A stretch of DNA of 64,000 bases, taken from assembly GCF_949987535.1 (NCBI RefSeq), contig NC_080069.1:45435269-45499268 (forward strand), in the 5' to 3' direction. Positions 22,660 through 35,280 of this stretch are shown piece by piece (positions within the stretch are counted from its first letter, which is position 1; each line of letters opens with the position of its first letter). Both the position numbers and the translations under genes were made by a program. Origin of the DNA: Balaenoptera acutorostrata (lineage: Eukaryota; Chordata; Mammalia; Artiodactyla; Balaenopteridae). Below the pieces are notes generated by a model. That model was not told where the DNA came from and ran no database searches. It saw only the letters and a list, made by a program, of their open reading frames with translations.

Positions 22660-22689
22660 CCATAGAATGAAGAATGGTATGGGAAATTT

Positions 22690-23690
22690 GATCCTTCTAT
22701 AGTAATATCATTGAGAATTTTCTTTGTAAGTGGGTACAGGCAGCATAATCAATTGGAGTGTTGTTGAGATGAGGGGTGGCTAGTATGTATATCTTCTAAT
22801 TTTAGTGATTAATTAAAGCCTAGAAAGATAGGAATTCAAAAGAAATGTTTTCCAAAAGAAATTGGATAAAATAAGCTAATTAACACATTTTAATTTAATT
22901 AATCAATATTTAAATAATTTATTACATCTCTCTTAGTAGAAGACATTTTCTCAGGCATAGTAAGGCAGAGTGTTATTAAAAAATTATACAGGCCCTGTCT
23001 CTATACTCTCATTCTGTAATTGTGGTAATTTATGCTTTGATATGTACTTTTGGTAGTCAAAAATATAATCTCTATAAGGGTATTTTTTAATATAAATGTC
23101 ATTATGCATGCTAGTCATAGTAATTTATTAGATCACCTTTGGGGATTAGTTGGGAGTACAGCATTATATTACAAGTAAATTTAGTGAGTCTATGGTGTTG
23201 GATGTAAATCAGTGCTACTAAAAGTGAAAGGAATCCTATTATATAGAGAATGAAAAGTGGAATTCTATATTTATTTGTTTGGTCTTATTTCTCAATTAAA
23301 TGACAATAATAAGTGTTGGAATTACTATTGCTTCAAATAATATGTAGAACAGGATAATATTTGTGTTAGTAAATGTTTGATTAAAATTCTTTGAACTAAA
23401 CTAAATAAATGTAGCATTATTTTGGGATTTCAGTTACTTTTGATTAGGTGAAATTGGCTAGCAATTAATATTAATGGTGGTAACTAGCTTATACCTACTG
23501 TCAAGGGTGTGGATAGTGAGTTGAAAAATAGTTCAATAAGATATTAAACTTATTTATTTATGCAATAAATTTATTAAATAACGAGGCTTTAGGAGATAGC
23601 TAATTCAGATTTTGTTTTGAGGCATCATACTTAAGGTAGGAAAGCAATTTTTAAAGTTGAAATGTATTGAGAATTTTGATGTAAAAAACT
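22690..23690 (-). pseudogene. MT-ND4: Mitochondrial ND4 fragment in NUMT
   Basis: On the minus strand the text follows mammalian ND4 (NADH dehydrogenase subunit 4). It includes the block around 23,480-23,520 for an SDSLSTPLL-like segment, 23,200-23,330 for 'FEAxxVPTLI' and 'GSLPLLVALIYIQ'-like segments, and about 23,105 for the 'LACMMxF' segment. A middle part near 22.88-22.97 kb is hard to align and may be deleted. The extreme C-terminal region is recognisable near 22.7-22.85 kb (FTRENxLM-like). Multiple indels and stops; not functional. Confidence 0.85.
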
Positions 23691-23699
23691 GTACATAAT

Positions 23700-23975
23700 A
23701 CCAACTACTCTTACAAGAAGTGTTAAGCCTATAGCAGCTTTCTGGGGTGCAAATATAAAATGTAGTCCTTGATGTTAGGTTAACATTTACTTTTCAAAAA
23801 GCATTATAATAAACAAACATAATATTATGCCCATTAAACATTGTAGCGAAGTTATATGGGATAAATTAAAAGACTTAGAAGAACTATTATAAATGCTAGT
23901 GAGAAGTTTATATTGATAGAGTTATTAGGTAATTGTTATAACCCATAATCTAAGGTGTCAAAATTATTTGTTTTA
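23700..23975 (-). pseudogene. MT-ND4L: Mitochondrial ND4L fragment in NUMT
   Basis: The minus-strand sequence aligns by eye with ND4L, including the 'SSLxCLxGMMLCLF'-like segment near 23,830-23,860 and the 'EAAMGLTLLVRV'-like end near 23,715-23,740. Its position between ND3 and ND4 is correct for vertebrate mtDNA. Confidence 0.75.
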
Positions 23976-24109
23976 TTGTTAAACTACATAATTTTACTCT
24001 TATAAATCTTTTTTGATTAATTTGTAGGCTGAGTCTGTGACTCATAGTATAAGAATAGCATTTATTTATTTATCTATTTATTTACCATTTTATTTATTTA
24101 CTTCATCTA

Positions 24110-24345
24110 TAGGTTGATATCCTAAAAAGTCCAAGGTAGTGTTAGTAAAAATAAAATATGGGGTCAAACAGTAAAAATTTGATTGAGACTAGGAAACATT
24201 TTGTTGTAAATTGTAAGAGGGACAGTTCTAGATTTTCAAATACAAATTCATATGGATTTGATTTTTCTGTATATTGGTAGTAATTGTGGTAACCAGAATG
24301 TGAAATTACCAATATAGATGCTAATATTGTTAAATAGTCTTGAGT
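24110..24345 (-). pseudogene. MT-ND3: Mitochondrial ND3 fragment in NUMT, with A/T-rich expansion
   Basis: The minus strand at 24,225-24,265 reads like the conserved ND3 'EKSNPYEFxFE' segment, in the right place between COX3 and ND4L. The distal part runs into a TTTA-type simple repeat (about 24,058-24,102) that has no mitochondrial counterpart and probably grew after insertion. Confidence 0.75.
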
Positions 24346-24369
24346 TGGTACTAATTAGTACAACAAAAA

Positions 24370-33367: not shown

Positions 33368-33434
33368 GTAAAATGGCTAATAATAAACTTTATATGGCAG
33401 ATATAAGGACAGAGGCTAATTCTTCATTTTACCA
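33368..33434 (+). pseudogene. MT-TY: tRNA-Tyr copy in NUMT
   Basis: Plus strand, running from GTAAAATGGCTAA to ATTTTACCA, so the acceptor stem still pairs. The anticodon loop is altered from the expected GTA context. It lies directly upstream of the COX1 copy, as in mtDNA. Confidence 0.85.
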
Positions 33435-33502
33435 AACTGGGAGGTTTAACTTACATACTGAATTGCAAGTTCCAAGAAGCAGTTAAATAAAACGTTGTTT
33501 CG
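33435..33502 (+). pseudogene. MT-TC: tRNA-Cys copy in NUMT
   Basis: Plus strand, with the anticodon GCA preserved at 33465-33467 in TGAATTGCAAGTTCC and the GAAGAAGCAG block following. One arm of the light-strand replication origin (TTTCTCCTGCC, about 33505-33515) adjoins it. Confidence 0.85.
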
Positions 33503-33544
33503 GTTTCTCCTGCCTCTCTCTACAAAAGTTAGAAGTAGATCAAA

Positions 33545-34005
33545 GCCAGTATTGAGGGAAGGTGGTTATCAATGTAAATGACACATATGCATATATTTGT
33601 AATTATTATTACATATAACAGAATAATTGCTAATGTGACCTCATGTGGAAATTATATTACACACATAGGGCTCCGATTAGGGTATATTCTGAGCTTAACT
33701 GATTACATGGCTAAGCTTGATATGGACAAATGGTATTTTGAGATTTAACTCTGTTAGTAGATATGGTCTTGGTGTGCGCATTCAGATTGTTTATGCAAGG
33801 TCAGGACAAGAATAGTTAATAATCTATACTAGTATTGATAAAGTTAGAGGTCAAAGTTGTTCTTTGATGTATCATTTCATGACATCTGCAGTTGGTTGAA
33901 GTCCATAAGGACCTACAATATTTGGTTCTTTCTGAAATTCAATGTGACCTAAGTTTTTTGTTGAAGCATTAAGAAGGCCAGGGTAAATAGAATAGGGAAA
34001 ATTAG
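33545..34005 (-). pseudogene. MT-ND1: Mitochondrial ND1, 5' part, in NUMT
   Basis: On the minus strand the KNLGHIEF...PNIVGPYGLQPTADVMK stretch (near 33,880-33,960) corresponds to the ND1 'KILGYMQLRKGPN' region. The TLIGALC segment lies near 33,665-33,680. The gene stops near 33,545, where it joins light-strand-origin sequence, so the ND1 3' half is lost. Confidence 0.9.
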
Positions 34006-34110
34006 TAATTATAAGTTAACTGGAAACTTGTTTATTAAAACTAAAACGTTGAACTCCTGAAAACAGTTTTACATTATTACTGGATTCTATCACCTGGATG
34101 AGTGCAATTC
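34006..34110 (-). pseudogene. MT-TL1: tRNA-Leu(UUR) copy in NUMT
   Basis: The minus-strand text GGTGATAGAATCCAGTAATA followed by the T-arm GGAGTTCAACG matches tRNA-Leu(UUR) between 16S and ND1. The 3' part contains extra T/A-rich bases. Confidence 0.75.
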
Positions 34111-35280
34111 TTGACTTATTTAATATCTAGTATCTGGCTCTTTTGTGGAATGGACCTTATTGCTTAAGTCCTTTCATAATGTGAGATATCTTTATATAAA
34201 GAGGAACCAAGTGGAAGTGTTCTGATCTGAATTCAGGTCACACAGAATTTTTAATGATGGAACAAAGGAACCTTTTAAATAGAAGTTACATTTTTAGAAT
34301 GTCTGGATACAACAATAAAACAATAAACCTTAACATCAATTTGACCTCTAAAATAGGATTTTATTATTTCCATTTGAGAACTCTGTTCCATTGGTGAAAA
34401 TTTTGAGTTAATTAATAATAGTTATATATTTAGAATAATTAGTCTACATTTGATCATTTGGTGGCTTTTCTATACTCTGAGGTCACCTCAACCAAAATAA
34501 TTAATTCAATTTATGATTAGTTACTTAGATAACTAATTTTCATATTCAATTAATAAATTTATGTTTTATGTGTTTTAGTAAGTAGAGGGAAGGTTGAATG
34601 TTTATTAAGTTACTTTAACTTCTTTTAATCTTTCTTTACTGCATATTTGTTTTAGGTTAACAGTATATTGAACAAATACATTCAAAAATTTTTTTCTATC
34701 CTCTAGCAATAGCTTATTTATTTTGGCAAGGGACTACGCAAAAAATTATTTTTTATTACTTATATTAGTTTTTTTCCTGCATATGTAGTTAATCCAATAC
34801 CGTGTTAGGAGGTGGTTTTGCTTGTAGGTATTTAGCATGGTTGTGCTGGTGTGCACTTGTAATTGGTGCTGCTCTTAAGCCAGTTACAATTTTATGAGTA
34901 ATTACTCTCCCAGGATGGTTTTTTTCTGTTTCAAATGATCTGTACATCTTCTGGTTAACGTTTAAATTTACATTAGGATTTATTCTTCTTTAGGTAAATT
35001 CAAAGTTGAACTTAAATTCTGCTTTGGATAACCAGCTATCACCTGGCTCAGGTTGTTGTTTTTTTTTTTCCCCTCTACCTGTAAATTCGTCCCATTATTT
35101 TGTCACAGAGAAAAATGTTTCCATATTAATTGTTTACAAGTAGCTTGTTTGTTTTCTTTCTGTGTTTTAAGTTAAAGTTCTCTGTTTATTATGTTCTAGT
35201 TAATTCATTATGCCTAAGTATAAGAGTTACTCTTTCCTTCTGTTTTTGGTTTTGAACCTTTAATGAGAAAAATTATAATA
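34111..35280 (-). pseudogene. MT-RNR2: Mitochondrial 16S rRNA, central and 3' part, in NUMT
   Basis: On the minus strand, conserved large-subunit blocks appear in order: AATGAATTAACTAGAAC near 35,200, CAGGTGATAGCTGGTTATCC near 35,035, TTTGGTTGAGGTGACCTCAG near 34,480, AATCCTATTTTAGAGGTC near 34,350, GACCTGAATTCAGATCAGAA near 34,230 and ATGAAAGGACTTAAGCAATA near 34,165. These include the peptidyl-transferase-centre and 3' end regions. The 5' third and 12S are absent. Confidence 0.93.

Follow-up and report, generated by a model that had tools for sequence, protein, structure and literature searches.

A stretch of 64,000 nucleotides from Balaenoptera acutorostrata (hereafter the window), located on the 125.8-Mb contig C7 of the single assembly read (2.77 Gb), carries four insertions on three levels. 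A nuclear copy of mitochondrial DNA (NUMT) contains an endogenous retrovirus (ERV), and a processed retrocopy of PABPC4 and a short interspersed element (SINE) both lie directly in the ERV (Table 1). C1, C6, C14 and similar designations refer to other contigs of the same assembly, L053 to L065 to extracted loci. The initial annotation had described a nested NUMT, ERV, retrocopy and SINE, and this was borne out by mitochondrial, long terminal repeat (LTR), PABPC4 and SINE alignments, including the interruption of the ERV itself: retrocopy and SINE are situated within its limits of 25,783-31,603. Of the 'four-deep nest' announced there the four insertions stand; the levels are only three, with the SINE beside the retrocopy and not inside it. 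Such nests are nothing unusual in mammalian genomes, and a published description of this one was not found in the open-access literature searched. Absent from the initial annotation were two serial tags of foreign DNA behind the SINE; no other part of the locus is as informative.

The four insertions

Minus-strand matches in mitochondrial order were obtained by tblastn for ND1, COX1, COX2, the C-terminal end of ATP6, COX3, ND3, ND4L and ND4; the queries were bovine-like mitochondrial proteins. Comparison to PDB chains yielded COX2 (E 6e-11, beginning at residue 40) and COX1 (E 7e-12), and a Pfam search of six long frames only weak matches to ND3 and ND1 under the cut-offs. The sequences of younger NUMTs in this genome, taken as proxies for mitochondrial DNA, aligned piecewise across 35,264-23,034, presenting three gaps internal to the NUMT, of roughly 0.2 kb in the 16S rRNA gene, 1.9 kb from ND1 to COX1 and 0.8 kb from COX2 to ATP6. 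Matches of tblastn to ND2 and to most of ATP6 were not above chance, which for ND2 is consistent with a deletion. Decayed mitochondrial genes in mitochondrial order within nuclear DNA thus identify a NUMT on the minus strand, supported from 16S to a part of ND4 over 23,034-35,264. A wider mitochondrial copy, ND4 to 16S over 22,660-35,280, had been annotated; its outermost part, 22,660-23,033, is not demonstrably mitochondrial, since 22,640-23,034 aligned to the ND5/ND6 side of a young NUMT better than 30 of 30 plain shuffles, yet with a p of ~0.14 in 200 pair shuffles. ARAGORN and Rfam (gathering level) reported no tRNA and no rRNA in the window, and Rfam over 33,300-36,000 gave a single chance-level match (E 3.7). 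The segment 22653-22983 also aligned to L056 600-927, on the other strand and outside the mitochondrial part of that locus (39.7 versus a shuffle maximum of 34.6), possibly as a shared repeat. CHR-type SINEs are present in younger NUMTs as well (L056 7862-8164, L054 7954-8283, L053 5136-5434), two of them just after COX2; repeats near NUMTs are a subject of the available part of PMC10941376.

The ERV, of class I, separates codons 39 and 40 of COX2. Joining of the COX2 flanks left no gap at the junction against two young NUMTs, the nearest gap being ~19 bases upstream, and removal of 4 bases at the junction lowered the scores from 69.4 to 62.3 and from 77.4 to 71.3. A split of COX2 by an LTR pair with COX2 codons on either side requires that both sides abut, and they do so base-exactly. 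Two separate NUMTs flanking the ERV by chance could be imagined from the lack of an ERV target duplication and from the further breaks in mitochondrial colinearity, but the blocks share the strand, follow the correct order and abut exactly against both proxies, and such a coincidence is hardly credible.

The two LTRs differ at 57 of 322 aligned sites (Kimura two-parameter distance K 0.207, the ends set 1-2 bases differently). A TATA box occurs in both, the TG start and AATAAA in the 5' LTR only and the CA end in the 3' LTR only; all signals of an LTR (TG...CA, TATA box, AATAAA) are represented, those lacking in one copy being mutated there. In a genome search with the 5' LTR 40 of 1,010 candidates were scored and all 40 were matches, including the two LTRs of this ERV. 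Eighteen nucleotides beginning TGG directly after the 5' LTR are a candidate primer binding site, and we take positions 26106-26116 to be the polypurine tract. About 1.5 kb of internal sequence remains. One of its eight pieces matched the integrase C-terminal family MLVIN_C (Pfam, E 2e-4, under the curated cut-off) and the integrase of murine leukemia virus in PDB (E 0.0018); on these matches the gammaretroviral character of pol/env was accepted. An envelope-like piece reached an E of 1.8 only, and the other six pieces matched no retroviral family in Pfam.

The retrocopy had mammalian PABPC4 as top database matches, with 91 % identity across the entire query. The parent gene with introns is located at C1:32.40-32.42 Mb, where the retrocopy matches as 14 pieces over ~15 kb, some exon-sized parts of the coding sequence (CDS) being unmatched at the threshold used. 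The retrocopy is intron-free, its CDS has frameshifts and one in-frame stop, and its poly(A) starts after the AATAAA stretch of the parent; together with the target duplication, AATTCCC(T/A)CTTTGA with 13 of 14 positions identical, this upholds its annotation as processed. Insertion took place at the boundary of the polypurine tract and the 3' LTR. Matches of the 5' untranslated region (UTR) at C18, C19, C1:13.04 Mb and C7:7.82 Mb look like further retrocopies. PABPC4-like proteins of Mesoplodon and Kogia were rejected as orthologues: each shares only 2 of 53 private differences (622 columns; 7 of the differences from a frameshift) and they are thus other retrocopies. PABPC4 was not found among viral contigs. 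The retrocopied 5'UTR has a CpG observed/expected ratio of 0.97 versus 0.15-0.24 in the flanks, and 72 of 94 parental CpGs are kept in it versus 48 of 70 in the CDS.

The SINE has a tRNA-related 5' region with A and B boxes, the boxes recognized by eye. Rfam scored a tRNA at 29812-29883 (minus) with 20.5 bits and E 0.12, which stays under the gathering score of 29, in keeping with a tRNA relic. The name CHR-2 is the label of the initial annotation; CHR-1 and CHR-2 are described as tRNA-Glu-derived in the accessible text of PMC9223172. The annotated target duplication was likewise recovered, with 15 of 15 bp identical, the longest in 2000 shuffles being 9.

Table 1 Positions in the window of the nested insertions, their boundary signals and a second tagged SINE
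Feature	Position	Strand	Remarks
NUMT block 1	31604..35264	-	16S rRNA 34102-35264, ND1 33602-34026, COX1 31887-33362, COX2 to codon 39 (end 31604)
NUMT block 2	23034..25782	-	COX2 from codon 40 25208-25782, ATP6 C-end 25135-25215, COX3 24372-25080
NUMT block 2, continued		-	ND3 24110-24324, ND4L 23712-23855, ND4 part 23033-23528
ERV 5' LTR	31268..31603	-	LTR pair alignment, genome family search
ERV internal remnant, SINE-split	29328..31267	-	Integrase C-terminal piece 30535-30654; envelope transmembrane-like piece 30246-30413, weak
Presumed polypurine tract AAAGAGGGAAT	26106..26116	-	Directly before 3' LTR
ERV 3' LTR	25783..26105	-	Ends TTTTAACA against COX2 codon 40
Processed PABPC4 retrocopy	26119..29313	+	5'UTR 26119-27001, broken CDS from 27002, 3'UTR, poly(A) 29304-29315
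Retrocopy target duplication, copy 1	26105..26118	+	
Retrocopy target duplication, copy 2	29314..29327	+	
tRNA-derived SINE (CHR type)	29589..29888	-	(TAAA)n tail
Tag 1, transduced	29574..29588	-	15 nt, then A18 at 29556-29573
Tag 2, transduced	29485..29555	-	~70 nt, then A-rich tail to 29466
SINE target duplication, copy 1	29889..29903	-	
SINE target duplication, copy 2	29451..29465	-	
Second SINE, outside the nest	60178..60581	+	Two serial tags 60457-60581; 14-bp target duplications 60164-60177, 60582-60595

Decay and order of events

The decay per site of the NUMT varied with the error assumed and was 0.28-0.32 for COX2, 0.40-0.48 for COX1 and 0.37-0.57 over a pool of seven genes, the estimates other than COX2 being probably inflated by frame breaks. 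The LTRs of the ERV gave a K/2 of 0.103. For the retrocopy a codon fit yielded 0.042-0.049, with the last 9 aligned residues looking frame-shifted; its CDS differs from the parent at 66 of 1481 sites (K 0.046), among them 18 of 337 second codon positions. The SINE differs from five relatives carrying its tag at 8 of 269 sites, ~0.03. The ranking of decay, NUMT before LTRs before retrocopy and SINE, matches the order of nesting. The order of events had been said to be directly readable, and nesting and decay give NUMT, then ERV, then retrocopy and SINE; the last two are siblings in the ERV, hence their mutual order cannot be read from nesting. Decay leans towards a SINE younger than the retrocopy, by two measures that differ in kind. 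Assumed substitution rates of 1.1-2.2e-9 per year would put the age of the ERV at roughly 47-94 million years, and the other layers scale with it. The NUMT, with roughly at least 3 times the decay of the LTRs, may predate the divergence of its mammalian order. Later hits by transposons are the usual fate of an old NUMT; the present case differs in boundaries that are legible across three levels.

Serial tags behind the SINEs

Between the tail of the nested SINE and the second copy of its target duplication lie 123 bp of foreign DNA, composed of two serial 3' tags with an A run after each. The exact pattern of tag 1 occurred at seven places genome-wide, six of them behind a SINE. At C1 it consists of the target duplication of the SINE plus unique native flank, thus the C1 SINE is the likely founder. 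In the copies at C6, C22 and C27 tag 1 is followed by a short run of A. The window copy and a sister at C17 have the series tag 1, A, tag 2, A, in each case within a target duplication of its own. Tag 2 had three matches in the genome; the one at C18 is native and terminates in a TTTT run. There is no SINE within 1.4 kb of this native site, and the place of the parent is thus unoccupied.

A second SINE of the window, outside the nest, presents the same arrangement with its parent still in place. At C21 the parent SINE lies directly upstream of the native tag 2, with the target duplication AAAATCCTGCTCCCC and T7 at the end of the tag; the children, flanked by separate target duplications, are the second SINE in the window and copies at C27 and C24. 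3' transduction is therefore documented by tag 1 native at the C1 SINE and by the tag 2 of the second SINE at the C21 SINE; for tag 2 of the nested SINE the source element itself is absent from the native C18 site. T4 and T7 in the native flanks correspond to TT or TTT in the children at the second step, which would fit the pattern of T+ SINEs; the first step, with no T4 in the founder, and the C24 child do not fit it. An exact 19-nt pattern holding the first tag of the second SINE was present 1,462 times genome-wide versus 0 for the reversed control. The sole candidate for the founder of this tag, at C14 (L065, C14:103273193), was discarded as a later SINE inserted exactly into the tail tag of a tagged SINE. 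Among the five SINEs of the window with a clear target duplication, tags were found in two and none in three; two further copies have no clear duplication. The SINE at 57690-58085 apparently has, by eye, ~26 nt and A13 after its tail and ahead of a target duplication that is imperfect. Fragments resembling ORF2 of L1 were noticed by eye in the open frames 36640-37158, 48571-48918 and 55334-56252.

Proposed history and its alternatives

Four separate insertions built the locus; together with the read-through origin proposed below for the two serial tags of the nested SINE, we regard this history as probable (about 0.85). A stretch of mitochondrial DNA entered the nucleus, and a provirus of class I, gammaretrovirus-like, integrated between codons 39 and 40 of its COX2. 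A spliced and polyadenylated PABPC4 mRNA was copied into the provirus at the boundary of polypurine tract and 3' LTR under formation of a 14-bp duplication. Into the provirus interior a tRNA-derived SINE was copied with a 15-bp duplication, bringing along two DNA pieces native elsewhere. For the SINE, RNA polymerase III may have read past the element into the flank and stopped at a T run, followed by polyadenylation of the transcript and insertion by the L1 machinery. Its first home would have been at C1 and its second at C18, with the products in the window and at C17. We infer that, having given rise to these products, the C18 copy disappeared from this lineage.

As an alternative origin of the tags, reverse transcription may have begun on a polyadenylated RNA of unrelated origin and switched to the SINE RNA, the chimera being mobilised again. 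Chimeras of Alu and L1 within target duplications are documented in the available sections of PMC13174262, and the proposed parent site at C18 is empty, without a SINE beside the native tag 2. In the parallel case, however, the parent SINE lies directly upstream of the native tag 2 at C21, both tag 2 sequences end inside a T run of native DNA, and tag 1 is the native flank of the C1 SINE. Template switching was therefore set aside on the evidence from C18, C21 and the tag copies and is considered quite improbable. The empty C18 site itself might be an effect of the assembly (other haplotype, unassembled duplicate) or of a precise recombination loss instead of the loss of a young insertion by drift. 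A single assembly was read and none of the three tag 2 matches is an occupied copy, but the sister SINEs in the window and at C17 differ at 5-6 % of sites. The parent would thus have bred millions of years ago and a still-polymorphic parent would not be expected; we consider this explanation of the empty site unlikely.

Several observations weigh against serial read-through and the four insertions as proposed. The founder at C1 has ATATTATT and lacks TTTT where tag 1 ends, so that a canonical terminator for polymerase III is not seen at the first step; this step could equally be explained by cleavage ~15 nt downstream under the direction of AAUAAA. The window and C17 copies have no derived SINE substitutions in common versus the four copies with tag 1 only, and with one assembly the lost parent is deduced rather than observed. 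The C24 child of the second SINE ends in GGTAGG and not at a T run, and a founder of the first tag of this SINE was not found in the genome search. For the ERV, a target duplication of the expected 4-5 bp is not visible; ATTA faces TATA, hence the duplication has either decayed or never existed. By eye, 4-bp duplications are clear at 5 of 19 other loci of the ERV family.

The tags resemble the 3' transductions of L1 and SVA, in which DNA between element and target duplication also traces the source locus; the difference is a SINE transcribed by polymerase III, whereas L1 and SVA are transcribed by RNA polymerase II. Parentless cases are shared as well: those of L1 in dogs, and L1 3' transduction, are treated in the available part of PMC12458276. 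In T+ SINEs, according to the sections available, polymerase III transcripts stop at T runs and are then polyadenylated (Can SINE, PMC9599045; B2, Dip and Ves, PMC8466645). Parents with terminators of at least T4 give children with T2-3 and a long A tail, and terminators may arise in the target duplication, resulting in two rudimentary terminators (PMC9599045, same sections). In the present SINEs the terminator lies ~70 nt downstream and flanking DNA is carried, two rounds are stacked, and one parent site is empty. The word 'transduction' does not occur in the main text of PMC9599045 and PMC8466645. The Alu/L1 chimeras (PMC13174262, as far as available) have in common with the nested SINE a full SINE plus other sequence within one pair of target duplications; they differ in that the DNA added to the nested SINE is not an L1 end but is native to a site proposed to have once held a SINE. 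In the open-access literature searched, no description of a cetacean SINE with serial 3' transduction was found.

From the nest, relative ages of four kinds of insertion (NUMT, ERV, retrocopy, SINE) are obtained at a single site. SINE insertions are used as near-perfect markers of descent, while their source copies are rarely identifiable; with serial address tags, individual copies can be identified as grandparent, sister or child. As the empty C18 site suggests, a SINE copy may give rise to others and disappear afterwards. There may be an even chance that whale SINEs in general spread by chained read-through copies with a tag added per home, that some tagged lineages become subfamilies, that breeding copies can vanish after founding lines, and that a single genome suffices for reading SINE pedigrees whose parents are lost.

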